Origin: Neelides folsomi
Lineage: Eukaryota; Arthropoda; Collembola; Neelipleona; Neelidae
DNA: 64,000 bases
Reading direction: 5' to 3'
Assembly: GCA_034687125.1 (NCBI GenBank)
Contig: JAQGBZ010000138.1
Coordinates: 1-64,000 of the forward strand
Shown here: positions 29,462-64,000 of the stretch, piece by piece
How positions within the stretch are numbered: position 1 is the stretch's first letter
Layout of the letters: every line of letters begins with the position of its first letter
Notes under the pieces: generated by a model
The model's database searches: none
What the model was told of the DNA's origin: nothing
The model's input: the letters and a program-made list of their open reading frames with translations, nothing else
Position numbers and translations under genes: made by a program

Positions 29462-31000
29462 TTACGGATACCAGTCAATTTTCCATTTTGTTCTCATCAT
29501 CCAAGCGTCGTCACTTTTAATGTTCACCCAATTCCATTTATTAGTTGTTCTGAGCAGAGCTTGAAGCGCTTTAGTTAAGAGGATCGGATTGATTTCAAAG
29601 ACGCTCTCGTCTTCGTCCGAGAATGGAGAATCCGTTGGGTTTATGAGAGATGCCTCGGTGACAGCGTGTTGCTTGAGTTTTTTCCATTCCACTGTATCTG
29701 ACGCAGAAGTTTGAGATAAACTCTTGCCTGTAATGTCCAATTCCAATTTCTCATATGCTATTGGCATAATTCTTTCGCCCTCACTGCCTATGCTGTAGCT
29801 TGAGTTTGAGCTTATGCATTCTTCATCGTCGTCTTCGCCACCAAATTCCTCTTCATCATCATCTTCGCCAAATTCTTCTTCATCATCCTCTCCACCAATT
29901 TCCTTTCCACTATCTTTAACTCTTTTCAATTTGCTCACAAAACTTCCATCGAGATTTGGATAGTAGTGAGAAGTCCAAGCAAAAAAATCGACTTCTCTCT
30001 TCATTAGCAACTGATTCAAGTGATAGCATTTTCTGATTGCTCTGTACAATTCCTTTTCTGACATCACAACTTCCTATTACAAACATATTTAATAAATAGT
30101 ACAACAGTAGAGTACAGTGGATTCATTTCAAATTATGATAGATTTCATAATTTCATTGATTCCATCATATTTAAATTCATTAATTTTTTCTCAAAAATAT
30201 TGAGTTTTACCTACTGGTACCATGAGTGGATAAAATGATTACTCCACGTATGAATAAAATATGAAATTGGTGTGAAATTGATTCATTTCAATTATTTACC
30301 GGTGAACTTTCTTCGTATCTCAATAGTGCTTTTTGGGCCGAAAAGACAGTTTCAATCTTTTGTAGAGATATTTTATAAAAGAGCTGTAACGCCTTTTCAT
30401 CTGAAGATACCATGCGAAGTTCCTCGTTCTTTAAACTTTTTACTGTTTCAATCCAAATTTCCGATTTTTTCAAGTCGAGATAATTAATGATGATTTGCAT
30501 TGTAATCTACAACAATTATATATTTTCAAGCAATTTCGATGTAAATGTAATTTTACTATTATTTATAGAAATAAATACATAAGATTACGTATAAGGTACA
30601 TTGTGCATACTTGATTAGGCATGCTAAGAGTCCTGAAAGTTGTCATTTCCCCATTTGGAGTTACTTCGATCACCCTTTTCAATAAAAGATAAATTTTTGA
30701 TCTGACACATCCAATCATGTCAAGAACGGGTGGTCCTGGCTTCTCATTCACATTTTTCCTCTTGTAGTCTCTCGCGTATTGGCTCATTAACGGCTCTTCG
30801 AGAGCTGAAAGGGAGAAGAAATTAAAAATAGTTAGTTTCTTATCGACTAATGAGCTAATTGATGTCGATAATTGTACAGTTGCCTGAGTGGGTGAGTTAT
30901 CATTACTAAATCTTCCATCTTTAGAAATTGATATATCAAAATGAGAATGTTTGTAATTAATGAGAAAATTGCATCGAAGTCTTTTAATGATAAGCCGCAT
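29462..31000 (-). CDS. Unrecognised protein with Glu/Asp-rich tract
   Basis: Three exons on the minus strand: 30611-31000 (ATG at 31000), 30300-30506 and 29462-30073. All phases are zero with GT-AG borders, giving 402 residues. I do not recognise the family. The first exon is basic and hydrophobic (MRLIIKRLRCNFLINYKHSH) and contains EKPGPPVLDMIGCVRSKIY. The second is helical-looking (YLDLKKSEIWIETVKSLKN). The third has SEKELYRAIRKCYHLNQ, WTSHYYPNLDGSF, then an imperfect acidic repeat (GGEDDEEEFGEDDDEEEF and a further copy), and ends NKWNWVNIKSDDAWMMRTKW before IDWYP. No signal peptide or membrane segment is evident. The Trp-rich C-terminus and clean exon structure argue for a real gene. It could be lineage-specific, nuclear or cytoplasmic; no function is proposed. 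Confidence 0.7.
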
Positions 31001-37094: not shown

Positions 37095-38113
37095 ATGAAG
37101 GTTCTTCTGGTAAGCAAAAAATTTTACATATTGCAAATATCGAACCTTAAAAATAATCGAAAATAGTTAATTTCAAGTGTCGAATTTCAATTTCTATTTC
37201 ATAAAATAAAATAAAATAAACTAACCAACAATTTGAACCTCCAAAATTTTGTGAGTAAAATAATTGAATGAATTTTCCTTTTAAAGATCCTTGCATCTTT
37301 CGGGATGCTCGCCTCAGCACAATACCCTCCCTCCCAATCTCGCTCTCAATACGGAGCTCCTCAACAACAACAACAAGGATACTCAGCTCCCCAACAGCAA
37401 CAACAACAGTATTCAGCTCCCCAACAAGCTCCTAGACAATCTTACGGAAGCCCTGCTCCACAACCGAGCTACAATCCAGCCCCACAATCTGGAGGCTACA
37501 GCCAACCCCAACAACAACAACCCCAATATGGAGCTCCAGCTCAAGAGCCAGTTATCCACAAGCACGTTTACGTCCACGTTGCTCCTCCAGAGCAGCCGGA
37601 AGCCAGGGCGCCAAAACCATACCGAGCCCCACCACAGCCAGAGAAGCATTACAAAATCCTTTTCATTAAGGCCCCAACACCTCCAGCTCCAGAACCCGCA
37701 GATTTCCCAGAGCTTCCACCTGCACCAGAACAGAAGACTTTGGTCTATGTTCTCCTCAAGAAGCCAGAACCAACTCAGGCTCTCATGATCCCAACCCAAG
37801 GTATGAAATCTCGCTCGCGAGCCAATTTCAATAGTTAAATCAGAGTATTTGAGAAATTGTAACATTTGGTTATTTGTTAGCTCCAACCAAGCCATCGAAG
37901 CCAGAGGTTTATTTCATCCGGTACAAGTCCCCAGAAGCCCCAGCCGAAGGTGGATATGGAGGTAAAACAATGCCAGTTATCAATTTTCAATAGTCAAATT
38001 ATGTCTATGTTAAAAAACGAATTTTAATATTAGCACCAGCCCCAGCACCAAACTCCGGATATGGAGCTCCAGCTCAAGGAGGAAACGGAGGATCGTCTGG
38101 TGGATACAACTAA
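37095..38113 (+). CDS. Tweedle-family (DUF243) cuticle protein
   Basis: Four exons: 37095-37109 (MKVLL), 37287-37800, 37881-37961 and 38034-38113, giving 229 residues with closed phases. The short first exon followed by an intron inside the signal peptide (MKVLLILASFGMLASA) is typical of arthropod cuticle protein genes. A Gln/Pro/Tyr-rich low-complexity segment follows (repeats of YSAPQQ and YGAPQQ). Then come the four Tweedle blocks: VIHKHVYVHVAPPE, KHYKILFIKAPTPP, QKTLVYVLLKKPEP and KPEVYFIRYKSPEAPAE. The tail is Gly/Ala/Pro-rich and ends GGSSGGYN. Tweedle proteins are secreted and bind chitin in the extracellular cuticle. The gene stands alone in a gene-poor region. The family is strong evidence that the organism is an arthropod. 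Confidence 0.93.
37200..37219. repeat. Short AAAAT simple repeat
   Basis: About four units of AAAAT/AAATA occur in the first intron of the Tweedle gene. It is an ordinary low-complexity tract. Confidence 0.6.
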
Positions 38114-42762: not shown

Positions 42763-44920
42763 CTAGTCGTCATCTTCACAGAATGGGGTTCCTGTTGCAT
42801 ATGCAATCTTGGACAATGGCAGTCTTCTTTTCTCAATTCGGACCATATCAATGCAACCGACGAATCCCTGGTGTAACTCTGGAGGAACTTCACCAGGCAA
42901 AACCGACGTCGCAACACCTCCTAAGGAATAAAAACCAACATCAAACAAAGTTGAAGAGGAATAGGAGAACAAAAAGTCCATAAAGTAGATTCCGTAATCC
43001 TCTCAATAGCTTCTAGAGGCTTCAACAGTGGCTCCTGGAGTGCTTTTAAGTTCAGCCCTTCTTTAGGTTTATACATTTTATATTCGGTTTATACCTAGCC
43101 AATATCGGCCGTCAGAGAGGAGAACGTTACTTCCAACAGGAGCCGTCGCTCTTTGAGGTGTTGAAGAGTCCACCTGAAGAACAATTAATCTTCGTCTTCG
43201 TGCTATTAAAATTTGATGCCAGCGCCCATCGTCCGATACTTTTACCTGAACAAAGAGAATATTCCATTTATCATTTTCGCTAATTGAAAGATCCTTATTA
43301 ATATAATTTAGCTTTGCTCTACTTTATAATGTGAAAATTTGTAATTAATGAAAGAAGCTAATTTCAAGAGCAACGAACCTTGGATCGAATAATGGTAGGA
43401 CGTTTGTGTTTTCCTGCACCTAACTCGACTCGAAGCTCTGGATAGCCGTCAACAATGAATAGACCCAAATATCCCTTCCGCTTGTTGCTTTGCACGTGAG
43501 TTCCTTTTCCCGTCCAGATCAATAGCCCGGGATTCTCGCTTTTCGTTCGGAAGACGATCTCTATCCGATTTCGCCGCTGAGCCTTCACCCTGGAACAAAC
43601 CCTCATCATTTATTTATGTGAATTTGGAAAAGCTACAGAGTGAGAGAACTTTAATCATCTCATCATCTTCTTATTCATCTCAACATCGGCTAACTTTTTC
43701 TCTTGCTCTTATCAATTCATTCAACTCCTTTCATGAATAAGTTATGAGAAATTTTCCGTTTCTCCCCTTCCTCAAAGCAGAAATGACAAAAAATAAAAAT
43801 GTGATTTATCTTTGTATTAAAAGCCTAAAGAAATTGAGAAAATTCACTCAGCTGTATAAAAAACAAATTAATAAAACCCCAATCAAAAACTTTCATCGTC
43901 AACATTTTATAACTACCTATGTAAGGCTTAGATATTACAAGAGTTGGGTTTCTGGACTTTTGCCAACACGGAGGAATCGTTAAGATTTTAAACAGCTTTA
44001 TTAAAGATTTAATTAAAGGCATTAAAGGTTCATTAATTATTAGAACATTTATATGCAAGGTAGATGATAGTAAGAAAGTATTTGCATAGATAGGATAAGA
44101 CTCCACTTAAAGAAGATACACATTCGTTTCCACTACGGATATTTTTAATAAAATTCTATATTGGCAAAGAATTAATTAGCTGAGTGAGTGCCGTAACGAT
44201 ATTTGACATAATTAGTTATTGAATTGAAGGAACGAAAGGGAAACTGCACCACGAAACATTAATTACCCAATTAGTAAATAGATCTGTATAGGAAGCAAGA
44301 TTAGATGTCGTTAATTAAGTTTTAGAGAAGGAAGTTAAACCTGTTTTCTGACTCATATTCAAGAATTGGATTGAAATCGTCATTGTCGACATATTCTTCG
44401 TTTTCAAATTCCGCATTATCTTCGTCAGGTGAACCCTCAACAGGATCGTTTTCTCCTTCAGACTCCTCTGAGAGAATTTCATCATCAGAGAAAAGTTCAT
44501 CGAGATGTGAATCAAAATGCTCGTTATACAAATCGTCGTAGTCGGAAAAGTTGAAAGACTCGCTAGTTGAAGGAACGGAAGCATAAATAGAAAGAAACAA
44601 AGTCACCATGTTCGATGTTAGTTGATTTCAAACAAAGCTTAATTAATAGTAATCTTGTTAATTATTTTTTCATATAAAGGTATTCTATTGCATTAATATT
44701 AAAAAATGCATTCATAGCTTCAATTTTATATAATTATTAGAAAGATGTCAGATTTGCTTCAGCTTTACATACAAGTATCTGTATCATACTCTACTTTAAA
44801 TAATGGAATGAATTATTTAAACTACAGGTATGTATATCAATACTTACTTTTTGGAAACTTTTCTGGGAAATCTGAGATAGCTTTGGCCATCAAAACTAAC
44901 AGGGCCTGGAATTTCCAACC
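42763..44920 (-). other. AGRN: Agrin LG3 domain exons
   Basis: The exons are 44848-44920 (GPVSFDGQSYLRFPRKVSKK), 44341-44562 (acidic cassette), 43379-43589 (RRNRIEIVFRTKSENPGLLI, FIVDGYPELRVELGAG), 43095-43245 (DDGRWHQILIARRRRL, LLSDGRYWLGG) and 42763-42920 (GFVGCIDMVRIEKRRLPL, ending TPFCEDDD). They form one laminin-G fold of about 180 residues without the cassette. In vertebrates LG3 carries the z-site that controls LRP4/MuSK signalling. Confidence 0.92.
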
Positions 44921-47900
44921 CTAAAATTTAATACAAAAAACATTAAAATCCAAATTAATAAATCAAAAGATAGTTAACTTCATGTCATATTTATGTTAAC
45001 AAAGTAAACCGTCAAATTTAATAATGAATAATTAGGTAAGCAAGTTTAAACAACTGATTCTAAAGTATCATAAATTTTCATAATGAATTAATTATGGTAG
45101 ATTATGTGTTTGTAAACTTACGAATTTCGCAATTTCTTCCAGAGAACTGAGATGGGCAAAGACAAACAAAAGATTCAAGCCGAGGAAAGCAAGTTCCTCC
45201 ATTGAGACAAGGAGCTTCTACACTTGTTCCACACGGAGGCCCTTCATAACGATGAACAAGTCTTTCCCTGAGCGCAGTATTAATTTCCTTATGATAAGTC
45301 TCTCCATTCACTCTCATAAACTGAAGTGCTCCGTCGAATGGAGTTAAGATTCCCAATTCCCTATGCACCATATTCATATCCCTGCAAGAATCATAACATT
45401 AAACATTTTGTTTTCCCAATTGAAATTGAAAAAATAAAAATAGATTTCCCTGTGACACCAGAGTCACCAGACATTAAGACAAACGAGTCACTGTAAAATA
45501 GAATTTTATTTTACCTGATTCCCCCAATGTAAAGTGGAAGCTCCAAATTGAGTTCAGAGAGAGTCGGAGGCGATCGGGTTAATTGAACGGGTTGGCCATC
45601 AATCTGAAGCCTCCCTTCTCGCCCCTCTCTCTTCACCACGACCCAGTGCCACTTGTTCAGTGAAATTGGAAGACTCCACCTTTAAAGTCATTCGATCAGA
45701 GCTTAAATATTTATTTACGCAGCCTCACGTTAAATTCGCCATTCCGCTCCCGAGGTCAAAGAGGAATTGGAGGTGGCCATTATGAACGAGCAAAGTTAGG
45801 AAATCTCCTTTCCCCATTTCTTGTCCGTTGTAGAGAATGAGTCCATTTTGAGCACGGAGCATAAGCCACATTTCAATCGACACTTGCCTCGCGCCATTGT
45901 CTATCTTTGGGACTTCAAGGTATGAGAATCCTCGAAAGTCGAGCATGGCTTCTGTCTCAACAACGGCACTCAGACGAGAGTCGCAAACACTCCCTGCCAA
46001 ACATCCATACTTAAGAATTTTCCTTCCGAAACCTATAATTTTATTATTACCAGTGTACTCGGGGTGACAGACGCATTTGAATCCACTCGAAACTCCTTTA
46101 TCCTCCCAGCAAATTCCGTGGTTTTGACACGGGCTCTTTGAGCAACGATTCCCAGTCACAGGTCCTTCAAGGAAAGTTTGATCTGTCGTTGAAGTTGTTG
46201 ACTTTCTTCTCAACGAGGCCGACTGCTCCTCTTCGCCCTCTCCCTCAAAGTACACATTGTACATTGGAGTCGTGGTGAACCGATGGAAAGGACTCATCAC
46301 AGGGCATTGGAATACATTGTCAAATGAGACGATAAGCGGATCTTTTTTCTCGAACTCTATCGGACGTCGTCCCACTTTCAGCTTATGGACACAGCCTATG
46401 AAGCCTTCGGACGTCCCCACTGTCTCCCAAATCCTATTTCCATGTTACAGACTTAGATTTACAAAACCGGGAAAGAGTTCCCTAAAAGCCTTCAAAAAAT
46501 CTTTGTCATACTTGGTGGAATTAAGTGGCGTATAGCCCAAGTAGCCCCCATGGTCAAGATTGAGGGATTTCATCGTGCCGGGAGAAATCCCTTTCACATC
46601 TTCCTCTTCGTCAACTCGGAGCAGACCGTCGCGGTTGTATCGTTTAGCTACAATATGATAAGTTGACCCTGCATGCACCCTGGTCGCCGATCTTAATATT
46701 GCCGGTCCATCACCAAGATCGTATCGGAACTCGACGAATCTACGAAGGAAACAGAGTGCGATTAAGTAAGTTCAAATCCCTCAAAGCTCCTGAGGATTAA
46801 AGTTCCAAAACTTTTTATTTTCATTTTTACCCGTCGATGAGAGCCAAAGAAAGGAAATCTCCGGATCCGTTTGAGTGCTGAGAAGAAAAAACGAGGATTC
46901 CATGGGCATAATCAAGATATGGGGTTACTTCAAGCTCAAGGCTCAACTTGTGGTAACCGGCGAGTTTCCCGATAGAAATCGTCGACCGCCCGGAGAAGAA
47001 AGGGAAAGGATGCTCTGAAGGAATTGGATCACGAATTTACAAAATACTCCGTCCAAAGAATGTTCAAAATGTTCAAAATCCTACCTGTGTGAGAGCAGCC
47101 ATTCTCCGAATTGGATTTGGCCAAAGGACAAACACAAGAATGAGTCCCATTCAAGTGATCAAAGCAGTCTGAAGGGAATTCGCAAAGATTTGAGTCCTTG
47201 CTGCACCTTAGCGGCCCTGTATGCGGATCTAGAGGAAAAGAATGGGATTAAATGCTGTAAATTGCATTCCGCTCCTCCAATTCTCTTTCGTCGAAAGAAA
47301 CTCATTTCGCTTTCGTTCAGCCTTCATTAAACCAAAGGCTGGGAGTGAATTGAACTGTCTTGACTGATAAGTTTTGACGTTGGGAGAGATCCCCTTTACT
47401 TACGGATAGTCTTGCACTGAATTCTTTCAGAGTCTTCGTGAAAGCCCTCTCTGCAGATGCACCAACCGGAGAGACAAATGCTGTGAGCCGTCACACAATC
47501 CTTCTGATTGACGCAAGATTCCCCCAAGTAACTCCGTATCTGTAAATGAAAATTTTGATTTGGTGCCCCACTCAGAGATTTTGTATTAAAAATGAAACTC
47601 TTTTAACCATATTTCAAATAATTAAATCTCCATTCATGGAGTGATAAACTAATGTGGCTCATTCTTACCTGAATTGTTGCAGAGGTTGGAGATCGATGAC
47701 CGTAGAAATTCTTGAGGAAACTATCTTGGAATTTTGGTTGAAGTGGGAGATGTCTTGTTGATTTCATGCCTGAGGACCCAGCTCCCATTTGATCTCGCCA
47801 TATTTCTCCATTACTTCTACCCGACTCGCTCCCATCCATCCCGTCGTCTCCGGGTTCCGTGAAGTGAAGTCCTGAAATCCCTGAGCCCGTCCATCTCCTA

Positions 47901-50900
47901 ATCGTCGGACTCTCCGTCCCATCCGACTCACCTGTACATTCATTCACATCTTAGCTCTCTCAATTATTAATGAGGGAATCGGCTGTAAAATTCACTTACT
48001 TGAGTCTCGGCAAGGCCCTTTGAGCGTCACCCAAATTGGCTTTTGACTCCTACAAGATTGGAGACGCACAAGGCATTCGCTCTCATAGGTAAATCCGTCA
48101 CTCGCACACACCTCCTGTCAGATTCATTGTAAACCAGTGTTATTTTCTTTCCTTTCATCTTCTTCCTCATTAAAACCTCTCACATCATTCAAACTCTTTG
48201 TAATCATCTTTTGTCAAAAGTTCGCATTGACTTCTACCACACTTTCATTGTAAATACTCTCGACATCCCCTGATACCTACAAGCCTTACAAATACAATAC
48301 CACCCGCGTTTTATGGTACACAAACCCTTGATAAATGTTTTCCTACAGTAAATAAATACATAATAGGTATTCCTACTTTTTAAACTTTAGAAGTTGTATA
48401 GTAATATGATGTAAAAGTAAAAGATATTTTCCCTTTGTGTTATACCCAAGGCTGTTCATAAACAGGTGTTTAAACATGTATAAACATATATAAATCTGCA
48501 TAAATCTGTTTAAACATGGGTGAATATGGATAAAATATAAAAAATTAGGCATATTCCTGAATGAGATAAAAGGAATTTCAAATTCTGTGTGCATTTACAT
48601 TAGATCATGAGGGGCCAGGGTCTAATTCCACCCGACCTCGGCAACCCACTACTCTTCCTCATTTTCACAAAGGATTAAATGAAAATAAATTTATTTTATT
48701 TTAAACTGAAAACTGGGGCACCGTGAGAGATATAAATATCCCATTCATCCAGCCTGGATGAATTAAATAATTTATCCATGTTTAAACAGGGTAAAAAACC
48801 AGCCCTGGTTATACCTATTTCAACCAACAGATACCTATGCAGAACTTAAAAATTGTAGGATGAAATTACTGTATGCATGTATTACATGTGATGCATTAAC
48901 TAAACCATTCGGAATAAGTTTAACAAAGGTGTTTATGAAAAACATAATTAAAATAAATTTATTTTAGTGATATATGAAACGATGATACTGGTATCTGATA
49001 TGACTACTAATATGTGTATAAATATCATATGGCGATTGATTTCTAAGATTCAATACATTATTCATCTAATAATGGAATTTTTATAACCTATTGCATGTTA
49101 ATAAATAAATAATTGAATTTACCTCCTTGTCGGGAATATCTGTGCAATGGATATTGCAGATACACCCAGCTCGATTCCCATCCTGCTCGCATTCTGCCCC
49201 AAAGCCACAAACAACTTCTTCGCAAGTTCTCCCAAGATTCACTGAGTCTGAAATTGGAGAAGGAAATTAGAAAATGACAAAGGAGAAATTCGAGGTGAAA
49301 GGATGAAGAATTCCTTTCTCGCCCTTCTTCTTCTATTAAATGGAAAAGCGGAGCCAGCAGAGGGGAAAATCATAATTCTTTGTTTACTACAATTATCCCC
49401 ATATAAGGCCCATATTGACGATTGGGAATGGCCTCTTTTCGTCGCGAAGTTTTTAGGCTAGATTTCAATTTCCGCTCAGGGATTTAGAGATTTCTCTATT
49501 GAGAGGAGATGAGGAAGGCGAAGAGAAAAGGAAAGACTCATAGAAAGTAATAATAATAGAACGGGTGGTTTTATGAGTGCCATGAACTGTGTGTCTTTAC
49601 ATGGTGGCCGTAACAAACAACGGCTATAACTCTCATCTGACTCTCGGCCCATTGAGGAAAGGAAAGAGAAATCCTGAGTTGTGGCTGACAAGTCTTACCA
49701 GAAGTACAGCCATAGGGTCCGAGGAATTCTCCTTCGCCACATGAATCACATTTATGGCCCAAGACCCCAGGTTTGCAAACACACCGCCCTACAATATAAA
49801 AATTCCTCATTATTTCCAACATTCGGACCAACATAATCCAAATTCGATTAGCGAGGAATTATTAGAAGGTATGGTGAAATGAGAGGAAATAAAAATCTTA
49901 CCGCTCATCTGCTCACAGTCGTCTCTGACGGACCCGAATTTTGAGCAACCACAAGCTGAAAAATGAAAGTTGTTTATCAATCTCATCTCAAGAAATCATT
50001 GATGTGGAGAAAGTCGGTCAAGTGTAAAGATGGATTTCTTACACATGCAGCCAGTTTCTCCTTCAATCGCGATCCTTTGAAGACCCCAGAAGCCAGGGAG
50101 ACATCTGTCACATTTATTGCCTCCAACTCCAGTTCTGCAGAGACAGTCTTGAGTGACCGGGTCGCAAGTCTCTGCCACCGAACCCAATTTGTTACATTGA
50201 CAAATTGAGGGACATCCAGCGTTGTTAGGATCAAAAGCTACGGTTTGACCATCTGGACAACAACCAAATGTGGTTCCCGAGCATCGGCCTCCACTCGCCA
50301 TCGGCCTCCTAGTCGTCGAACGTTCTTCAACTAATGAACAAATAGTCAAGTCATATACACGCTCATAATTTACGACCTTTGTATATTGCTAGAAATCTAT
50401 CTCGTTCAAATGACTAATGAAGGTAATCACTATCATTGATTTTTGTAAATTGTACATCAATACCTATCTTAGACTATGATTGCATTTAAAGGCCTTTTGT
50501 TCAAAGGAAAAATTTAAGATTGTATTATAGAGGATTATCTTTATAAATTGAATTGAGAAAGACTTAAGGATAAATAAGCCTTTTTCGAAATAAAACTATT
50601 TTATGACATTTTACATATAAATATGTAAGAATCTGCAAATATAAATCGATAATAACAATAATTAAAATGGCTGCTTGAATATTCTTCCCAAATGTATACT
50701 TGGAAAAGGGGGATTGGAGGCAAATAGTTGAAATTTAAAGGTTCTTGAAGGTCCAAGACGTCATACATAAGAAAAGGGTTTATGAAGCAGAAGAACAGAT
50801 TGCTTCCCCCTTCATCAAGACTTTCCCCTCATCTCTCCTCATATAGAGGTGGTTTATCTTTACGATCTCATTTCTCTCTCCTCTCAAGTCCCCCTTTATC

Positions 50901-53900
50901 CAAGGTATTATTTTTATGACCAAAGTTTGATGGTTTAAGAAGTGGGTAAGATGGACCAATTCATATGAAGGAGCGGGAGAGTGAGAGGAAGGAAGGGCCA
51001 GCCATCCTGGCAAAACCCATAATTCATTTCACGATGGAGAAGAATGAGGGGCGGGGGAACGGTTGAGGAAGGGCCACTTCATTTCGACACAAAAAGAGAA
51101 AAATAACGTCGCTCGAAGTGATTAGAAATATAAGGAAATGGGCTTACGTTTTTTGCAGCATTTTGCAAAGGATCGACTCCGATGACAGAAGCTTCCCGCG
51201 GGGCAATTTGCCCGATTCTGGCCGTTCCCACAATTTATGTCTTCTCCTGTCTCCGCACTTTTCACCGGTTCCTCACCATTGCACGGCCTCAACTCCGTTT
51301 CTAAAAATGAAGACAGCTTCCATAATTCTTTATCCAGTTTAGATAAATGATTCTCTTCCGAATTGACTATACGAAAAGTTGAAGTTGGTCCATCCGACTC
51401 AACTTAATACAAGACGCGTATATATCATATATGGAAAACGGATCGATGATGTTGAAATATATAATGCGGATATATTGAAAATACTACGCGAGAAGAAAAT
51501 GAAAAATAAATGTCCTGGAACAAATTTTAATCTTTTGCGTTTTTTATAAAGTTATATAAGATTTTCCATTTCGGATTTCGGTTAGTAAATATGGATCTTA
51601 TACGCCTTTACGCACACAATGGTTCTCGATTTCTTAGACGTGGATGTAAAAGATTGAAATTCACTCTCAAAAATTCTAAGGATGCAATCATGAGGATTAG
51701 CGAGGCAAAAGCGAGCAAACCTTCGCAGAGTTCCATAGGTCGAGGACGAAGCTCAGTTTGCCGGTGACAGGCCTCTCTCCTCATTTCGCATTCACCCGAA
51801 TAAAGCTTGAGATCCGAGCCGCAGACGGGATTCCCAGATGTAAAAGTGCAATTGAACTGGCAAGTACACCGAGGAAAACCATCTTCTCCCAATTCGCAAA
51901 GAGCTCCGTAGTCACAACGAATGTTATCGCAGAGTTTGGGTCTTGGTTCATCCGGGTGAAAGAACCCTTGGCTAATTATGCTTCCAAATTTACTTGATCC
52001 TGTAGGATGTGCGTATTCGGGCTCCAATTTCACTTTTGTACCTGTATAATTAATTTTCATTTACACATACCTACATATATTACGTTTCATACTGTTGGAA
52101 TTTATTCATCATATATCATATCTAAATGTAATTACATGAACATTAATATCTATAGAAAACCTATAAAAACATGTATAGGTACATGTTTGTATTATCATAT
52201 TACGTTTAGTTCTAAACTTCTAAATATCACTTGAATTTTGATAATTTTATTAAACAAGTATGGGGAATAATTTACCACTAGAGCCAGAAATTCCTTCATT
52301 GCAATCTCCATAAAAGTGGACACTGAGAGTGCGACCCAGGCGGCAGGCAGCTTTCTGTAGTTCGCACTCATTGGAGTAAGTGAGGAGATTGGATCCACAA
52401 ACAGCCTCGCGGTTCGGCGGACATTCGGTTGGACACACACAAATCCCCCCATCGCACTTGGCTCCAAATTTACATTGCACGTTCGCACATAAATCTGGAA
52501 AAGATTTAAGAGTGAGAGAGTGAAGAGCTGTGAAATATTGGCTCCATATTATTGGCTCTCATAAATAACTTAAATAACATTTTTGAGAAACATGTTTACA
52601 AAAATCGTATTTCATTTGAAAAAATCTTCATAGACAGAACCTTCTCATTTTCAAGCGAAGATGAAAAACGAGGAAATGTTTTCCGCTTCTTCATCCTCTC
52701 CACCCTCGCATTATCAAAATGATATTTACAATGAGAGGGAGGAGATGAAGGACTCAATGTATTTATGAGATGTTTATTTTTCTTCCAAATAAATGATCTA
52801 TGGCGTTTACAAATTAGAGATGTGTAGGGAGGAAACTCCTCTTTGCCAAATGAACGAAAAGCATGAGGTTGGAAAATGTCTTGTTCAAACATTCATCATC
52901 ATTAGCTTAATGCTCAAGAACGTACATAAATACTTTGGGCCGAATAAGTTTAAGGTAGTTGATGAGCAATCAAGGATCAGGCAATTCTCCTCGACATTAA
53001 ATAACCCAAAACTGAATTTCTCTCTCGACTCCTCCTATGATGTCTCGCCCATTAGGACCTTAATGCTTGAATTTATAATGGAATAAAATCCGACGTACCG
53101 CAATGTCCCTTCGAAGCCACCACTACAAATTTCTGTTGTAGGCAAGCCTCTTTCCGTAATTCGCATTCAGAGTCGTAGGTCGTCCCGTCCGTTCCGCAAA
53201 CCGCCGTGGCCAACGATGAGGAGGAGGAAGTCTTTATTTAGAGAAATCATTTGAATAAATATACATGCGATGCGAGCTCAAATACCAACTAATTCTCATT
53301 TACTCCAATAGAGATAATTTTCCCACAAAATTTATTTGTAACTCTTCCTTAATTTTCAATGTGTATCCTTCCACTTCAAATTACCTCGCTTGTTTCGGAG
53401 GTGCAATTCTCTCGACAGACGCACTTTGTTCCTCCTAAATCAGATTCACAAGAGGCGTAGAAATCACACTGCTTCTGATTGCATCCATCTAAATCATCAA
53501 TGGTCTTTTATCAAAACAAATAACTTTATAGCTTGAATTTTAGCTTGAGGTGATCAATAAGTACTAATAGTGTTAAAATATTATATGCAAATTCATTAAG
53601 TATACTATGTTATACAGTATAAAATATTGTCAAATTTTTACTGGCATTCAAAATATCCATCAACATTATTAGAATTTATGAATTAACACGCATTAGAATT
53701 TATCTTTAGAATTAAGGAGGAAAGGCCAGGTTAACTGAATTAGCAAGAAAAAAAATAGTCTCATACCTTCTCGACAAGTACATAATATGTACAATACTTC
53801 TTATGTGGTACATACCATGTATGCAAGGCTGTACAATTATGTAGTAGAATCAAAGCACAAATTAAGTAACCAAAGCACAATGTAGAGGTGAATAATATAA

Positions 53901-56900
53901 TGTTTAAATTGTTGCACAAAATACAATTTAATGACAAAAATCATGCATGGAATTTCAAAATAAAACTAAAATAATTTATCATTTAGATTGTGTTGTTATC
54001 TAATAATAATAAATATCCATAAATGATTTATCTAAATATTATTGGTAAGAAAAGTTGAAATGAATAAAATAAAATATTATATAATATTTAAAATAATATG
54101 TATTTAAAATAAAATAAATTCAAAAATATTTATTTATTTTCGTTTGTGATTTGAAAATAGTGAGAAATAAATGTAATTTTATCATTACATAATTGTATTT
54201 ACTATTTACCATAATCTGCTAAAATGTTCTTACCATTATTATTAAAATCGCGTATTAGATCTAAAAGGGTTAAAGCAAAGAAGAACAAGCATATTACTTT
54301 TAATTTAACAGTTGTATTATATAGAGAATACAGACTATAGGTATCTAATACGGCAAAGGTATTTTGAACACTTAAGTCACATCAAAGCCTTAGAAAAATA
54401 GAAATTATAAAATATATGATTATTAATGTATATTTCTATTATTTTAAACATTTTGAAGTGTCATTAGTCATTAGGGAGAAAAGCATCACTATAAAATTCA
54501 ATACGAACCTTACAAAATAATTGTTAGTACTAGACATACATATGTTTTACTAACGAAAATAATAGGATGAAAATTTTGAAAACTGACTGAAAATCTATAT
54601 AGGTATTTCATTAATTAATGTTGATAATCAATGGTGATGGTGGAAATAGGACTTACTACATAGGCCGGTATATTTTAGCTCGATATGATTATTGGTGATG
54701 CCTGTTGATAAAAACAAAATGAACAATTAGATAAAGACATAATAAGTTTCTTACATGTGGATAAATACGATAATAAATTATGAAATCGTTTGATTTCAAC
54801 TAGGCATGCAGTATTATAAAAATACTTCCATACTATACTGTATAATACTGTAAGGATAAATGTGTATATCTGTATAGTTTAAAATACCAATGTCTGTATT
54901 TAAGTATATGGTACTCTCAATACAGGGAAAATTACGCATTATTAAAAGAGAAATTGTTATTACATGATTCAAGGCGAAGGCGACACTCGTTTTGATAACT
55001 AACTCCATCAGCTCCGCAAACTGGTGAATATTCAGAAGAGCATTTCGGACATTCGCAAATCAATTCTCCATTTTTCTCTGAACAAGTGGCTCCAGGTTGA
55101 CACGTATGTTTCAAACATGAATTTCCACTCTCTAAAAACAGGAAAATAAATCAAAAGTGTTAAACGGCTCCTTGCGTTGCAAAAGTGTAGTTTCACAGTA
55201 TTACATACACACAAAAAAAACTTTTAAAGTTAAGACCTTATACCTAAGATAAGTATGTTAGGTATGTGAGTATTAAACTTAAAAATACAAAATTAATTAA
55301 TTCGTATTATCCTTTTTATAACTACAAATACACTTACATACACTTAGATAGTTTCTTTTAATATAAAATCGTGTCACATTGGCATCTCGTTAATTTCCTT
55401 CGGCGATCAAAGATAACAAATAAAAGTGAACAACGGGAGATTTCATTTACCTAATTTGCACGCAAAGGAGAGGTGAGTATGAAAGCCAGCATGGGAGAGG
55501 GAACACGTATAATTTCAACAAGATTAAAAATAATCTCTTTCGAAGCACGTCGTTTCGGGAAGGAAGGGGGAGTATTAGTGTGTGTGAGTAGCCCATGTTT
55601 ATGATCTGATCTCTATTTGTTTAAGACTTTAAGCTTATTTTTCTCCTTGCGTGAGGAGAAAGCGAAGAAAGGAAGCAATTTCCCTTATCCTCGTGAAGAA
55701 GAAATCCAAGGGTCGATTCTGTCCTTTCATTTTCCTAAGGCCGAAATTTAATCAAAAGGTACTTGTGGGGTTTAATCAGACACGAGCTTGGTAAACCCAA
55801 CCTCCCGAATATGATGGGCATTTCATTTCGAGAGAAAGCATTTACTTTTACGCCCCTCCAAAAGAAATAAAAGTTTCTGAAGATACTCTCATTGCTTCCT
55901 TTGGTCAGTAGAAGATTTTAAATGAGCTCGCATGTAAAATGACGCAAAGTTTCTTACGCGCGTTTAGTCCATGTATGAGCAATCGTATTGCAATAAAGAT
56001 AGTTGGAAGAGAGGAGAAACAGACTGAAGAAACGACAAGTGTCAAATATAATGTGCCAAACTCGGAAAATGTCTCGTAAAAACAAAGTAGCAATTTCTCC
56101 TTTTCCTAGACTTATTTTCTTTCCCATATTCCTGACTCAAATGTTTGCCCCTCGACCGGCTCAAACAGACTTTGCATCATTCTGAGCATACGACGCCAGA
56201 GAAATGGCGACTCTCACTCCATATTACAATCAACTGAGGAAATTAAGTCAACTTCAGCATTTAAACTACATACCGGTATTTGTAATGCTCGTACTTACAT
56301 AAGTACAAGAAACACTAAATACAAATGCAATATGTCTACTATATGGCATATTATGTGAATTCCCACTTTCCCATAAGCTCACTCAAATATCAAAATCTAT
56401 ATTATACTACTATTATACTATTAGTAGATAGATAATTACATAATAATGATATTTATAATCGTATAATACTTGACCCTTAATAATACGCAAATTGTGTAAT
56501 TAATGCATACATTACATTATACACAAACGTTATTATCTAACAATAATAAATTAGTCTAATCATAAAATAATCCCTTCATGACTGATTAAAGAATAATAGG
56601 TAATGTTTATTTAAATACCAAAAATCAAGTAAAAGAATTTTTTTTAATTTTATGTATAATGTCACTTGTATGGTACATTTCATTTATAAATATGTTTCTA
56701 CCATACATAAAATAGGATATTTTTAGGAAACTCTTCCTACAATGAGCAAGGGAATTAATTAGAAAGGGATCAAATGAATGAAGGGAAAATTGGCTTTGGG
56801 GTTGAGTGAGCCGATGACAGACTTAAGTGGTAGGTTGAGCAGTCTCTCTATCACTTCCAGTGGTGGAAATAAATGAGGATGGTGAAAGAGGGCTTTGCTC

Positions 56901-59900
56901 ACCGAAGGTAGCACACATGAAGAATGGGAAGTAGCCTTTGAGCAAGAGGCCTTTATATGAGTAGATAAATGGATGGACAAACCATTAATGCGATTAAAGG
57001 ATTGCGTGCAATTGATCTCCCGGCTGCACGAAAGAACAAACAACTCTTTTTCAAATGAAATGCTCTTTTCCGCCGTTTGGAAGGTATACTTATTTCAACT
57101 GTGCATTATTTTCCCTTCATACTTATACATACAATAAGCACTAAACTAATCGCAACTTTTCCACTCGTATGGTTTTACATAAGAGAAAGCTGCTGTAGTT
57201 CTTGATCTCATTCCTCTTCCTATGGAACAACGTAAAAGTACTATAAACTATCTCCAGAAGTTCAACCCGTTTCGCCTCTCATTCTAATTTCTTTTCTTCG
57301 ACCTCAGTTGTTAGAGAAATTGGTGAAATTCACCTTGAAGAACCCCCTTTGCATTTCATCCATTCCATTCCTCCTCCTTTCTGGGAAATTGAATTAAAAT
57401 TATAAAGTCGATTTGGTTAGGAATGGAAAGGAAAGGGTAATTCAATTCAGTTTGATTCAATTTCCCTTTGTCTTAATCCAAAGGAAACTCTTAGCCAATC
57501 CGCTCCACAGGCCAATAAATGAAATTCTGACAATTTAGGAACTCCTAAGAAAACTTTGATCTCACCGAACCAACTCATGAGCAAAAACAAACACTGAGTT
57601 TGAGAAACTCCTTGACCAGGTAGGAGTGTAAGAATGGTTAAAATGTAGGTGCTGGTTCTATTTATTGAAAGGAAGAGTTCAAACTCTTCAAGCATCTTGG
57701 ATCAACTTTGTTTGAGATTTTTTCTCTCCTCACCTTATTGTATTACTCACGTCATGAACTCATGAGTATACGTATTAGGTATGTACCTTTGGTGAGTCGA
57801 CTACATTGGTAGTTGAGGTACTATGTATCTGTATTTAGCACAACTCCTATAGTACTTGTATATTATGTAATGTATTTTTTCATTACTTTGCGGTATTGTA
57901 AACGTAATTTCCGGATCCTCTCATTAAACCCTAGACCCAAGAGCCTTAGATCCTTCAAATGGGAGATTCGGAGGACACGAGAGGGCCGTTTGGGAATGGC
58001 TATAAACCTTAGCATACAGAGTACGTTACTTCTACGCACATTTATTTCAGCATCCTTTTGGTCTTAAGATTGTCTATGCAATATACTGTCTGTGTACAGT
58101 GTTAGTGCCATCATGGCATGGCCACCTCTTCACCATCTCAACAAATCTAAGTGAAGACAGTAGGACTGAACTTCCTGAAAGGGATCAAACATACGATGCT
58201 AAGAGATTACAATGCCATTGAGGTCTCTTTTCTCTTTTATATGGTAATGGCCGTTCAGCCCCCTTTCGCTCCTTCCAACATTGATTTCCTCCAATTATTC
58301 GAAATTTAAAAGCCGAATAATGACACCATTAGGAGCTGAGGAAATTATCCCATTAGACCAGTGAACCAGAGGGCCCTTCTTTACCATAATAATAAGAGTA
58401 ATGAAGGAGCTGGGAGGCTCATTTGTCAGACTCAAGAGATTAAATTCATGCGGAGCTGAATTCATCCCGAGATCAACCCAAGGAGAAACTTTCTTTGTTT
58501 CCTCTCGGGGGAGAAAGGAGAAGACTCCCCTCTATTCCTCTGAGGATCTCTAAAGAATATCAGAATAGATAAGTATTATATACGCACATATGTATGGGAA
58601 CAAAGGAGAATAAAAAATGATGAAAAATTTGAAAAGTCAATAGAAGGTTGACGAGTGTGGTGGAGACAGGTCTTCAAAATGTGGCTAGACTATTTTATTA
58701 CCTTTAGGAGAAAATGTCATATTATTTATTGGATTTACTTCCCCGTACTTTTTTCCAATTCAAAGCACGTAAATATATTTTGGTTTCAATATTCATTGTT
58801 TAATTTATTATTAAATTTTCTGAAATTAATTTGAATGTAATACATATGAATATTATTTGACTGAGGTGCTAATTATTAAGGGATTTATGTTTGCAATTTT
58901 AGCGCTGATAATGCTGATATGTTGTATAGAAAGCATATGCTTTATCAAGTTAGGTAATTATAAAAGAATTTATGCATGCCATAGATAATAATAGCTAATA
59001 TGATAATAACATTACTACATACAGATATATTTTATAATCCCTCATTTGATGAACCATTATGCGTATCGAGATAAATACTAGAATTTAATGTAGAATTTAT
59101 TATACTCTATATAGAGTGTGTAGCTGTATCATAAAATGTATCCAAGGATGGGAAAGGTTATACAATAAAAGTTTTGAGGACTAAACTTTGTGTTTTGAAT
59201 TGAAAAGAGTTGAAAGAATGAAAATTGAGGGCGATGTGAAGTTTGTTGAAATAAATGAATCATGTGGGCTGAATAACTATTATTTGCCCTTGTATGAAAA
59301 TATAACAAGTCGGTTACGAGGTTCTAATATAAAGAGTTGGAATTATCAAGGGAGCCAATTGTGAAGAGATGAAAGGGAGAGAAAGGATTTTGTTAGGAGG
59401 AGGAAACAGCTTTCCCCAAATTCTCTAAGGGAGGAAAAGGTGGAATGGATGAGGAAGGCAAATGTGATGCCATGTCATTAAATTTATATTTGGCTTTCTA
59501 CTCTAACATTCGGGGATTCCTTCCCCTTAAAAAGACTCCCTCTCAATTTAGAATTCCTTGGAAAATTCCATGAGCCCACTCAGGCTCCCGAGGAGGAGCC
59601 GGAAACCCGGTGTGGACTTTAGCTTTTATACACCCACAACCCTCGCTTCGACGATTTTACACACACAAAAAACTTTTTCATAATTTGACTCAAAAGAAAT
59701 AGAAGTTGAGACTGACCACAAGTTCCTTTGTATGAGACGGCAATGTGTTTTCCTTCGCGGCAAGAAGAGAGGGTCAATTGACAATGATTGTCGTATGTTT
59801 TCCCATCTGACCCACATACAGGTTGGATCAAGGGGTCACAGACCATTCCACAAGCACATTGGGCGATTCCAAAACGGTTGATAGCACAACTTTCATACCC

Positions 59901-62900
59901 GCGGCACGTTTTGCTTTCACACGGATTAACACCTATAAAGAAAAAAATGTTAATAACTACATATAATAAACAATTATTGTTAAATATTTTAATTATGATT
60001 AATATTTTTATTAATAAAAAGTTAAGAAGTTAGATTCAGGTTCTTTAAACATTTATTATGCATTACTCCATAAATATTATATTTAAAATTAGCCATTGTT
60101 CTAAAATTAAATCTAACTTTACAATCCCCATTTATTTCAAACTTCATGAAAATTAAATTCCTTTTAAAATAGAAGGTTCCGTTTCCTTTATAATAGACAT
60201 TTTTCAAAGTCTGCCAATCCGCGTTAAACAGGCATAATTTAAGAAATCTCCCCATCCATCAATCTGCCAATAAAGCTTGACAGAGTTTCCTTTCGGAATC
60301 TTTCTTCCTTCCTTTCTCCGTCGAATTCTATGAAAGCTTTCCCAGATACGTTCTCACTTAGGATGAAAGATGCTTTCCAAAACCTTACGAGTGTCAGGGA
60401 TCAATAGGGTTGAGTAAGATAAATAACTGGATCACTTTTATGAATCCACTCCTTTAATACTCTTTCTTCTTGCACAATCATGTAGTGTTGCATTAATTCA
60501 CCTTTTGTTTTTTTTAATAAAAACAAATGAATTGAATATGAGAAAATTAAATATTCTAAAAAAACTTATTCAAAGTTTAAAAAAATGTTTGATACTCCTG
60601 AACAAATGCATGAAATAGCATTCAGATGAAATCCTGAGTAACTTATCCTGACTTACATTCTCATTCTTTGTTGGTTAAAGCTTCAATTGTTTTTTAGAAT
60701 TATTGTTTATCTACCAAAGTGTATTAGCAAATGCGGGTGGGAGATGAAACGAAATAATTGATGAGTGTAAAATGAGAGACCAGGGTCAAATTGGATAACA
60801 ACAAAGATAAGCTTACATTAGTAGCTCAAAGAACAAAGGCTTGTATTTACCAGAAGAGCATTTTCCGCGGTAGATGATTCTCATATCCCTGCGGGTTCGA
60901 CAAGCCTCTTGACGCATTACACATTCGTTAGAATACGTCTTTCCATCACTTCCGCAAACTGGTTTGAATTCCATTGAGCAGGTCTCACTGCAGCGGCAAA
61001 CGGGCCTCCGGGTTTCGTCCAAATGACACACTTGTGGGAGAGTGCAAATGATGTCCTCGCATGGATCTGCAATTTAAAATTCCATTACAAAACCCATAAA
61101 TTGATTTTTCTTTATGCTCATTCATTTTTAATAGAAAGTTTATAGTATCACAGTTGAATTTCTAATATTAATAAAATGACACTATTTTATATTCAATAAT
61201 TTCTTCCTCATTTCATTAGAGACCTTTGAATGCATAATTGTTTATAAAAAATACTAATATAATATACCTACTCACATTGAATTGATCGTATTGTGAAAAG
61301 AAATTTTTGTGATGATTTCAAAAGTAAAATTATTTAATGGCCCATCATTTCTAATGATAAATCTTATGAAGAATTAATCAGTAGTATCCTAAGCCATTAA
61401 ATATAAACTTCAATTAATATGAGTAATAAAATGAATCAAGAAACTTATAGCTGAATTTAGATGAAGTAAGCCACAGCTTCAGCGTTTCATGTTTTAATCA
61501 AGGAGGATAATAAAACATTTTATGAGCGAGGATGAGGATCAAAATACAAATAGAGTACAAAGTACATATATTAGATAAATACATACTACTTCATATACTG
61601 ATACATACAGTGAAAGGTAGTAAAGCGGAATGAGCTTTAGTTAGAGTAGAATAATGTAAATTAAGATGCAACTTTGGATCCATTCTAGTACTTGCAGATA
61701 AACGTACAAGGAAATGTAAATTAATGTTCAACTTAATCTTCTTGCAAATTCACCCACCGCATGAAAGGATCAATTCCGAACCTAACAAAGGAAATTCCTC
61801 GCAAGCTCTCATCCGATTTAAGATATTCAATTTTACCTTATCTTTGCTTCGGTATATAAAAGCAATGGGGTAGAAAATAATTGAATACTAAAACTTAAAC
61901 AACCAATATCTTCCATTTTAAGTTTTGTTAAAAGATAATTGATTTATAAAAATGTTAAATTATTCATTTCAAATATTTAATTTTAATTTAATAAATATAT
62001 TTTAACGCATTCAATATTCGTTAAAATTCTTATTACAAATTAAATTATTCGAAGTCTTGGATAAATAAAGAACACTTTTACTGTTATGTATTTTAAAAGA
62101 TACAATAAATACTACCTACTATATTTACATTGTTCTATACATATCCTACATATATGTTAAAATACGAATCTTCTTTAAAAATTGGGCTTTATATTGATAT
62201 CCGATATTATTAAAATAGTTCTATTAACATCTTGCCCTTTTTTTGTAACGAGGAAAGATGGATTGTTTGAACGGGGAAAAAATTGTACGTATTAGAATTG
62301 TAAAACTTGAGAAAAACCAGTTGTGCTTCTGCTTTCTATCTACAAAAGCACTAAACTCAAATAAGGTTTTCTTCTGTATGAATGGAGAATATTGGAAAAA
62401 GTTCTTAAAGAAAATTATTTTGTAGCGTCTATAAAATAACACTAAAGATAAAGATTATAATAAAAGTAAATTAAAATGCATTCATAAAAAGTTAATTAAT
62501 CGTGGTTTTAATAAATACCCATATCAATAATTTTTTAATGAACGTTTGAAATTTTTCAATATTTCACAAATGGTTTAATTAATTAATGTCTTGTGTTTAA
62601 CATTATTAGATATGTTATATTTATTCACAATTTAAAATATAGCATAATTTTAAATACCTTCTTAATTGATTCGATTTTCGATTTATGAATCTCAAGAATT
62701 CACACTTCCAAACAGTAAAGAAAATATATAACCTAAACGTCGAACGCGCTAGATTTATACATTCTTTAAATGCTAATGCAGGAAAGTAGTTTAAAAAGAA
62801 CGTTGAAGGGGGTGGAGATGCATGGATATTGAATCAATAAAGAAGTTCAAAGCAGGATAACTATGTTATCATGTTGGTATTAATGGGAGCGATTTGTTAT

Positions 62901-63267
62901 GTTGCGAAATCTAATTGGAAGGGAAAGGAATCTAATTTAATTGAAAGCGGGCTCTCAAATACTTTCCCGTTTTTATGTGGATAAAAATGAAACGAATGGG
63001 GATGGAGATAGAGATAAACGTTCGTATTACCGCATTTGCCGGGATATTTGACGGTGATATTTCTCGCCAAACTGCAGGCCTGTCGATCCAGTTCACATCG
63101 ATTACGGTAGTATCGACCATCTGACCCGCAGACTGGCTGAGACTCGTCACTATCCCCAAAGTTCGGACAAGACGCCGGGCACTCACACGTGGCATACTGA
63201 CCGTCCCGGGATGAAACGCAGCGGGAGCCGAAGAGGCACGCCTTGTCAGCACATGGGTTCGGAGTAT
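42763..63267 (-). CDS. AGRN: Agrin (heparan sulfate basement-membrane proteoglycan), 5' end off window
   Basis: Twenty-eight minus-strand exons read from 63267 down to 42763. They total 5372 nt with every junction phase closing, giving about 1790 residues. Domain order is: seven follistatin/Kazal modules, a Lustrin-like Cys-rich exon, two laminin-EGF modules, an eighth follistatin/Kazal module, a Ser/Gly-rich linker, an EB-like Cys-rich exon, EGF, LG1, EGF, LG2, EGF and LG3. The match to vertebrate agrin is close around LE1-LE2 (FGCCPDGQTVAFDPNNAGCP, CRTGVGGNKCDRCLPGFWG, SVRDDCEQMSGRCVCKPGV). Agrin is secreted, binds laminin, alpha-dystroglycan and LRP4, and organises synapses and basement membranes. 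The SEA domain is not seen. Upstream exons (signal, NtA and possibly another follistatin module) should lie beyond 63267; the phase-1 entry at the first exon confirms that the gene continues. Confidence 0.95.
44341..44562 (-). other. AGRN: Acidic cassette exon at the agrin LG3 z-site position
   Basis: A 222-nt exon between acceptor ACTAG|CGAGTC (exon end 44562) and donor AACAG|GTTTAA (exon start 44341). It enters and leaves in phase 2, so it adds exactly 74 codons. Skipping it joins AA (exon 44848) to GGTGAAG (exon 43589) as Lys-Val-Lys-Ala, still in frame. The residues are dominated by Asp/Glu/Asn/Ser (for example NFSDYDDLYNEHFDSHLDEL and EEYVDNDDFNPILEYES). It interrupts LG3 between KVSKK and KAQRRNRIEIVF, the position aligned with the vertebrate z-insert. 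Whether it is alternatively spliced cannot be read from DNA. Confidence 0.8.
45122..46433 (-). other. AGRN: Agrin LG1 end, EGF, LG2 and EGF exons
   Basis: Exon 45729-46433 holds the end of LG1 (GTSEGFIGCVHKLKVGRRPI), a Ser/Thr-rich spacer, an EGF module (CSKSPCQNHGICWEDKG, FKCVCHPEYTGNN) and the start of LG2 (LDFRGFSYLEVPKI, GLILYNGQEMGKGDFLTLLV). Exon 45515-45679 continues LG2 (NKWHWVVVKREGREGRLQID). Exon 45122-45381 ends LG2 and carries the last EGF (CLNGGTCFPRLESFVCLCPS). No insert is seen at the LG2 y-site equivalent (after LTRSPP). Confidence 0.9.
46512..47216 (-). other. AGRN: Agrin EGF and LG1 exons
   Basis: Exon 47085-47216 is a six-Cys EGF-like module (CSKDSNLCEFPSDCFDHLNG). Exons 46831-47014 and 46512-46739 form LG1 (HGILVFSSQHSNGSGDFLSL, FVEFRYDLGDGPAILRSATR, SLNLDHGGYLGYTPLNSTK). 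The intron to the next exon is only 78 bp and a multiple of three, but contains an in-frame TAA, so it must be removed. Confidence 0.88.
47404..47931 (-). other. AGRN: Agrin Ser/Gly linker and EB-like Cys-rich exon in place of SEA
   Basis: Exon 47669-47931 encodes about 88 residues without cysteine. It contains SG dipeptides in an acidic setting (TGSGISGLHF, DDGMDGSESGRSNGE, GAGSSG), plausible glycosaminoglycan attachment sites. Exon 47404-47539 is a compact Cys module (ESCVNQKDCVTAHSICLSG, WCICREGFHED) of EB/EGF character. Vertebrate agrin has a SEA domain of about 120 residues in this interval; no SEA-like sequence or cleavage motif is visible here. Confidence 0.7.
48000..49247 (-). other. 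AGRN: Agrin eighth follistatin/Kazal module (two exons)
   Basis: Exons 49123-49247 (TCEEVVCGFGAECEQDG, CICNIHCTD) and 48000-48114 (EVCASDGFTYESECLVRLQS, ending LKGPC) make one follistatin domain immediately after the laminin-EGF pair, matching the last follistatin domain of vertebrate agrin. The intron between them contains the hAT-type MITE. Confidence 0.88.
48447..48807. mobile_element. hAT-type non-autonomous element (MITE), 361 bp
   Basis: The element starts CAAGGCTGTTCATAAACAGG and ends with the reverse complement of CAGGGCTGGTTTTTTACCC. After the first segment both ends share TGTTTAAACATG. It is flanked by perfect 8-bp direct repeats GTTATACC at 48439-48446 and 48808-48815. The 8-bp duplication and the CA(A/G)GGCTG termini are classic for hAT elements. 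It has no transposase coding capacity and sits in an agrin intron. Confidence 0.87.
49699..50330 (-). other. AGRN: Agrin laminin-EGF pair exons
   Basis: Exon 50043-50330 encodes FGCCPDGQTVAFDPNNAGCP followed by LE1 (CQCNKLGSVAETCDPVTQDC, RTGVGGNKCDRCLPGFWG). Exons 49902-49955 and 49699-49788 form LE2 (CGCSKFGSVRDDCEQMSG, RCVCKPGVLGHKCDSCGEGE). The residue pattern follows vertebrate agrin almost position by position and is the strongest identity evidence for the gene. Confidence 0.93.
50331..51147 (-). other. Agrin intron, no other feature seen
   Basis: Intron between the LE1 exon and the Lustrin-like exon. It is AT-rich at first and more purine-rich near 50.9-51.1 kb. No coding or repeat feature could be supported. 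Confidence 0.6.
51148..51300 (-). other. AGRN: Agrin Lustrin-like Cys-rich exon
   Basis: A 153-nt phase 1-1 exon encoding TELRPCNGEEPVKSAETGED, then INCGNGQNRANCPAGSFCHR and a terminal CCKK. The C...NCGNG..R..CP.GSFCH......CC spacing is that of Lustrin/WR1-type cysteine-rich motifs found in invertebrate extracellular proteins. It links the last pre-LE follistatin domain to LE1. Confidence 0.75.
55132..59716 (-). other. Large agrin intron (4.6 kb)
   Basis: Intron between follistatin modules 3 and 4. No further Cys-rich exon, transposase frame or RNA gene was seen on either strand. Purine-rich and poly-pyrimidine stretches near 57-58 kb lack a recognisable identity. Confidence 0.55.
59933..60850 (-). 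other. Agrin intron, no other feature seen
   Basis: AT-rich intron between follistatin modules 2 and 3. No supported feature. Confidence 0.55.
61067..63030 (-). other. Agrin intron (2.0 kb)
   Basis: AT-rich intron between follistatin modules 1 and 2 of the window. Short open frames only; nothing supported. Confidence 0.55.
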
Positions 63268-64000
63268 CTGTGAAGAGAAATTGAGAGGATTAAAAACACG
63301 AAAGCCATTCTGGGCTCGAATTAAAGACGCCTCACGCCATCGACGTGGAAATATCTTCCTAATGGCCTACCTGCTGGGAATAGGTAACACGAGAGTGTGG
63401 CGACTACATCAAACCCAAGAACCACTGCGATCACCAAAGTTAGTGAAATCACTTTCTTACCACCCATTCTCAAATTAATTCCCTAGCCTCATTCGCTCCT
63501 TCCTTAATTAATAGTCCTTCTCAACGAGAGAGTTTATTCTTTCTTAAACTCCGTGCGAACCACTGTCGAGTAATTGCTTGTACTCAAACGCTAACTCGAG
63601 GTCAACGGTCGTGCTGATTCGAACTAAAGCTTATCTGGAGAAGATGAAATACGAGGGGGCGTCGTTTACAAGGAGATATTATGAGAAATGAATAGGTGGA
63701 GGGCGAGGCAGGTGAAAGTCCCGAGGAGCAAAAGACTCTGTGATGGGTAGAGAAGAAGCTGTGAAGGAGAAATGGTTCCTAAATCCACTGGCAGCTTTCA
63801 AGCCCGGACGAAAATTGCGAGTGGTGTTGAAAACATTAGGACAGTTAAAAGCAACACGCTTGCCTACTCACTCTCTTTACTCGATCCTCTTCATGAAGAG
63901 GAAGAAGAAAGCATTACATTTGTTCCATTAAGAACCGCCTTAGCCCCTGGAACTCTTTCCGCTCCTTTGCCAACTTGCAAAAAGTCGTTTGTATAATCTA
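63268..64000 (-). other. Agrin intron continuing past the right edge
   Basis: Sequence upstream of the first agrin exon in the window. Because that exon starts in phase 1 with a CAG acceptor, this is intron leading to further 5' exons outside the window. No exon was recognised here. Confidence 0.6.

Follow-up and report, generated by a model that had tools for sequence, protein, structure and literature searches.

The agrin gene of the collembolan Neelides folsomi lies on the minus strand of a stretch of 64,000 nucleotides (nt) of contig JAQGBZ010000138.1 (the window), and contains at 44341-44562 (-) a 222-nt segment that splits the LG3 domain at the position of the chordate z exons. Both ends of the segment are in phase 2, its 73 whole codons contain no stop, and 30 of them (41%; 17 Glu and 13 Asp) encode acidic residues, with not a single Lys or Arg. 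We propose, tentatively and with chances that we put somewhat below even, that it is a real, optional exon in a pancrustacean agrin, and that its product is a polyanionic insert that would flip the charge of LG3 and mask glycan binding.

Identification of the agrin gene

The gene was recognized from open reading frame (ORF) translations, LG and EGF profiles, and structure-sequence matches. The part encoding LG1-EGF-LG2-EGF-LG3 consists of ten exons, running from 47014 down to 42763, which join into one open frame of 689 residues; the assembly ends two codons, both Asp, before the stop. Pfam LG and EGF domains were detected in this C-terminal part, and the protein is nearest to agrin. With LG2 and LG3 as queries, the top match by whole-sequence E-value was agrin 8s9p in both cases, and the multi-LG protein neurexin-1-alpha (3qcw) came second. 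LG2 scored 120.9 bits against the agrin LG2 chain 3pve, and the best single-domain score of LG3 among the alignments listed was 91.5 bits, against chicken agrin LG3 (1q56), the insert-free form (PMC6450144). When LG3 was searched against the 75-Mb host genome, seven matches came back, four of them at the agrin locus. Because the three matches elsewhere were weak (E 2e-8, 7e-5 and 0.003), we conclude that this search found no second agrin LG3. Protein scans with LG3 of viral contig and genome contig collections yielded no relative.

Insertion point in LG3

LG3 starts in the exon at 44848-44920 (-), which reads LEIPGPVSFDGQSYLRFPRKVSK followed by AA, the first two nucleotides of a split codon. 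An upstream intron of 285 nt (44563-44847, -), with a GTAAGT donor and a pyrimidine-rich 3' end, separates it from the acidic segment. A downstream intron of 751 nt (43590-44340, -) follows, from the donor GTTTAA to the acceptor TTGTTCCAG, and LG3 resumes in the exon at 43379-43589 (-), which begins VKAQRRNRIEIVFRTK. Two further exons complete the domain, 43095-43245 (-) and the last coding exon with the stop, 42763-42920 (-), both placed by splice-site scoring, the latter also from its ORF. Length, phase, coordinates and both flanking exons agree to the base with a preliminary description of this stretch, which had also placed the segment in agrin LG3 at the vertebrate z site. That LG3 is split by the exon was correctly described, but the start of the downstream segment has to be corrected to VKAQRRN.

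Without the acidic segment, the junction reads FPRKVSKKVKAQRRNRIEIVF, and this form aligns to insert-free chicken LG3 (1q56) with no gap, KVSKK/VKAQ standing against AVTKS/EKALQ (the slash marks the junction). The z8 structures 1pz8 and 3v64 need eight extra residues at the junction, which the aligner splits in both cases: at the junction and one residue later in 1pz8, and three residues before and one after it in 3v64. The entry point is thus flanked by ...AVT(K/E)S and EKALQ, as in chordates, and the placement at the z site is borne out. The insert barely changes the Pfam LG score, which is 71.9 bits in its absence and 70.7 bits in its presence. In vertebrate agrin the z loop, close to the Ca2+ site, is described as hyperflexible (PMC6966886). 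Reasoning from isoform proteins, phase 1 seems to be excluded for the vertebrate z-site intron, which leaves 0 or 2. According to a 2025 study, all vertebrate and invertebrate agrins share a constitutive N-x-I/V that immediately precedes the z site (PMC12445529). Assuming that this motif is the chicken N-A-V, the corresponding position in the exon at 44848-44920 (-) reads R-K-V.

Anatomy of the acidic segment and the case for an exon

The segment has GT-AG flanks, with a pyrimidine-rich acceptor (TTCCTTCAACTAG/CGAG) and the donor AACAG/GTTTAA. Its inclusion turns KVSK-K-VKAQ into KVSK-N-[73 residues]-R-VKAQ, a net gain of 74 residues, and its omission keeps the frame. The extreme Asp/Glu content and the intact frame after skipping had both been pointed out before, and both hold.

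To judge how often such a segment arises by chance, we collected, from both strands of 264 kb of genome (the window and 20 stretches of 10 kb), AG..GT segments of 150-400 nt that are symmetric in phase, stay open in frame and have a pyrimidine-rich acceptor. Among the 1310 segments obtained, five contained at least 33% Asp and Glu; three of these are nested in the exon and two in a single acidic run of stretch L013. Likewise, five lacked Lys and Arg over at least 60 residues, two lying in the exon and three nested in one stretch of L019 with 29-30% Asp and Glu. Only 44341-44562 combines the two properties. A chance origin of the acidic open segment is unlikely.

Codon usage contributes less. 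In a held-out score, for which each neighbouring agrin exon was left out of its own training, the exon frame reached 0.23, within the range of the ten neighbouring agrin exons (0.00 to 0.46), and none of 60 windows from the two flanking introns scored as high, the best being -0.12. Scores at least as high were nevertheless found in 140 of 393 open 73-codon windows from 200 kb, and the exon scores 0.37 when it is read in another frame and the 14 stops of that frame are disregarded. For these two reasons the codon score is weak evidence that is not frame-specific, and composition together with the exact frame carries the case.

These data bear on the possibility that the segment is not in the mature messenger RNA, or appears there as rare noise, being an acidic open frame in an intron, for example a decaying exon. 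The many open windows with a codon score as high speak for it, as does the donor GTTTAA, which scores lowest of the 17 compared (see below); a search of the whole genome with the exon peptide gave one match, the exon itself, and the peptide matched no Pfam family. Set against it are the 73 open codons, the acidic and Lys/Arg-free composition that no other null segment shares, the codon score above all 60 flanking-intron windows and the frame that fits at both ends; we regard it as clearly unlikely.

The insert is perhaps disordered. Folding of the 73 exon residues alone, from the single sequence, gave a mean predicted local distance difference test (pLDDT) score of 58 and one low-confidence helix at residues 5-23 in an otherwise unstructured model, which is weak evidence. 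Two N-x-S sequons arise on inclusion, the first of them created by the splice junction itself (AA/C). Each of the four tyrosines of the insert has three to six acidic neighbours no more than five positions away, a setting that favours tyrosine sulphation. The exon also contains four N-x-x-F/Y motifs, as many as occur in 0.9% of shuffled sequences, this being one of several patterns looked at.

Possible optional use of the exon

Splice sites were scored at 19 agrin junctions, of which three gave no frame-compatible pair and were dropped, leaving 16 for comparison. The exon donor scored -3.7, the lowest of 17, and the other 16 range from -2.3 to 5.6. A second potential donor, GTCAGA, lies 12 nt within the exon; it is also in phase 2 and scores about equally (-4.0). 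Skipping of the exon would remove an intron of 1258 nt, compared with 49-201 nt at the other nine EGF-LG junctions. The weakest donor, the longest intron of the LG region and a clean skip product are indirect evidence that the exon may be used alternatively.

Several observations weigh against optional use. Inclusion and skipping are both predictions from genomic sequence. The splice matrix is a generic one, and the donors used for comparison are the best-scoring frame-compatible pairs, which biases them upward. For the upstream half of the gene, this scoring selected introns of 918 and 4585 nt, and because introns are also long there, the argument from intron length holds only within the LG region. 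Acceptor scores favour neither the inclusion nor the skip form: the exon has a mid-range acceptor (1.6), and the one in front of the next exon scores -3.0, the lowest of 16 when the acceptor of the acidic exon is not counted. The donor may be so weak that the exon is seldom included. A scan of five stretches for YCAY, TGCATG, PTB-like, TTTCTTT, U7 and CELF motifs gave no convincing enrichment in 30 motif-region tests: YCAY (Nova) occurs eight times in the 751-nt downstream intron, where 8.6 are expected, and six times in its last 250 nt, where 3.0 are expected, a count matched in 17 of 400 shuffles in one of the 30 tests.

Much of this would fit a constitutive exon, with which LG3 would always carry a 74-residue acidic loop that neutralizes a very basic domain, and no switch would exist. 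A charge of +17 makes sense if LG3 is permanently paired with an insert of -30, the exon acceptor outscores the one that follows it, other parts of the gene also have long introns, and skipping has so far not been observed. A constitutive exon would, however, leave unexplained why its donor is the weakest of the 17 and its intron span the longest of the LG region, and why the skip product is in frame and ungapped against an insert-free agrin LG3; we consider this explanation somewhat unlikely.

The same intron was scanned for further exons resembling z11, using pyrimidine-rich acceptors only, and seven segments were listed. Four start at the acceptor of the acidic exon and two at an out-of-frame acceptor 4 nt further in. 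A 36-nt segment at 44120-44155 (donor GTATCT) was considered not credible.

Charge, Ca2+-ligand positions and proposed function

LG3, 194 residues as assembled, has a net charge of +17 without the exon and -13 with it, counting Lys, Arg, Asp and Glu; the two Asp before the stop would give +15 and -15. LG1 and LG2 (windows of 170 residues) have net charges of -3 each. The aligned LG3 segment carries +20, compared with -3 in chicken, and the 16 residues around the insertion point carry +8, compared with +1 in chicken. The insert, with a net charge of -30, enters a basic stretch, RKVSKK/VKAQRRNR. These figures agree with the earlier suggestion that an insert of this length and acidity could differ in function from the vertebrate ones.

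Both acidic Ca2+ ligands are replaced. With the residue numbering of PMC6966886, placed through the spacing to Leu1837 and Gln1887, Asp1820 aligns to Gly (KRKGYLGL) in the exon at 43379-43589 (-) and Asp1889 to Leu (NVLLSDG) in the exon at 43095-43245 (-), so that LG3 lacks the acidic ligands of a Ca2+-binding LG domain. Just before the first ligand position, the stretch THVQSNKRK (43095-43589, -) contains a five-residue insertion relative to chicken. Because of its basic charge and the two replacements, LG3 seems poorly suited to sugar binding of the classical Ca2+-dependent kind and well suited to holding polyanions, and the insert would undo this. According to nuclear magnetic resonance work cited in PMC6450144, vertebrate agrin LG3 needs no Ca2+ to bind heparin and heparan sulphate. 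It is also listed there as a dystroglycan non-binder, so heparan sulphate is the likelier partner.

We hypothesize that the skip form is an adhesive LG3 that would bind polyanions, such as heparan sulphate or similar glycans, independently of Ca2+. Inclusion would create a long, probably disordered polyanionic loop (net -30) in the flexible z loop, carrying two potential N-glycosylation sequons and four tyrosines in acidic surroundings, and would reverse the charge of the domain, from roughly +17 to roughly -13. The inclusion form would then mask the basic surface, and either repel glycans or recruit basic partners. Two points temper this proposal: we infer glycan masking from charge, and both the exon and the basic LG3 are known from a single arthropod agrin.

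Control of glycan binding by LG splicing has a precedent within agrin, because LG2 gains a heparin site through its basic y insert (PMC6450144). Like the acidic exon, the vertebrate y (A) exon, KSRK, places a charged insert beside the Ca2+ rim, where it alters heparin and dystroglycan binding (PMC6450144); it differs in being basic, in having four residues and in lying in LG2. The vertebrate y-site position falls here inside one continuous exon (45515-45679, -), and this gene therefore has no intron able to host a y-type cassette. In the synaptic protein neuroligin-1, the insert at site A1 is likewise optional and charged and modulates the binding of heparan sulphate, but it belongs to an unrelated domain, is positively charged and raises binding (PMC7486126).

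Relation to the chordate z exons

In the accessible passages of the 2025 study, z exons with N-x-I/V/F are reported from vertebrates and Ciona and a putative one from amphioxus, C. elegans and sea urchin are found to have the intron but no z exon, and z exons are concluded to be chordate-specific; the only non-chordates named there for the z-exon search are these two, with no arthropod (PMC12445529). Another study, whose comparison included bee and beetle, reports that the vertebrate insert motif is missing from invertebrate agrins (PMC2874008). C. elegans AGR-1 is likewise an invertebrate agrin, with its best alignment to the z0 form; in contrast to the gene described here, neither an insert nor alternative splicing was found in it, and the sites were judged vertebrate-specific (PMC1939731). 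Among the papers listed by full-text searches of openly licensed literature, none reports an arthropod agrin insert at the z site in its title or abstract opening.

The acidic exon enters the same LG3 loop as a chordate z exon, at the same alignment point, and has the symmetric, frame-keeping form of one. It differs in size, with 74 residues against 5-19, and in being acidic; at 222 nt it is no microexon of 5-11 residues with N-x-I/V/F. Alternative use in chordates is neural, whereas here it is a candidate, and the origin is probably independent. A true homologue of the chordate z exons would be an LRP4-binding insert in which NPI (within FNPIL) acts as the z8 N-x-I/V motif. The shared insertion point and the one NPI speak for this, as do beta-propeller exons of receptors in the host genome, one set of which (stretch L033) was judged by eye from its translation as LRP5/6-like (arrow). 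However, the 73 whole codons compare with 5-11 residues and show no resemblance beyond the motif. At least one N-x-I/V occurs in 38% of shuffled exon sequences, and N-x-I/V/F in a fraction of 0.71, and the constant part of LG3 holds an NRI as well. The propeller exons found in the host genome may belong to LRP4 or to other LRPs, and published searches found no z exon in nematode or sea urchin (PMC12445529). Homology of this kind seems to us very improbable.

Of the two origins considered in the preliminary description, an older regulated z exon and an independently placed cassette, the second fits best, with the addition that the intron position is ancient and the insert a lineage-specific, independent acquisition. 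That the exon is an older form of the z exon is not supported, as size and composition differ and the N-x-I is expected by chance; an ancient z exon is also disfavoured by the intron without a z exon in C. elegans and sea urchin (PMC12445529, in the passages cited above). What the acidic exon and chordate z exons have in common would then be an old intron in a tolerant loop, filled by different exons in each lineage.

Neural z-splicing of agrin is a textbook switch for the vertebrate neuromuscular junction. It has been called vertebrate-specific (PMC1939731) or chordate-specific (PMC12445529). If our proposal of an optional acidic exon is true, an in-frame arthropod insert at the z point would make the z loop a recurrent or ancient site of splice-made diversity, and would suggest that its older use may be control of glycan binding rather than LRP4 signalling. 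We speculate further, as a doubtful extension, that splicing at the z loop is regulated far beyond the chordates, and that in a pancrustacean it serves as an electrostatic polarity switch that turns a Ca2+-independent glycan-binding module off or towards other partners.

Other features of the gene and the host genome

Upstream of LG3, six exons between 45122 and 47014 (-) encode LG1, EGF, LG2 and EGF. Further upstream in this gene, the region 47029-63289 (-) contains Kazal/follistatin-like, laminin-EGF-like and EGF-like exons, with domains assigned by eye from ORF translations and approximate exon borders. A 203-residue open frame at 29462-30073 (-) includes the acidic stretch DDEEEFGEDDDEEEFGGEDDDEE and matched no Pfam family. 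In the mitochondrial contig of the host (10 kb, L040), tRNA-Leu(taa) lies between cox1 and cox2, an arrangement typical of Pancrustacea. Beside agrin, a reading frame at 37272-37835 (+) matches DUF243 (Pfam E 5.9e-17), the domain of Tweedle-type cuticle proteins.
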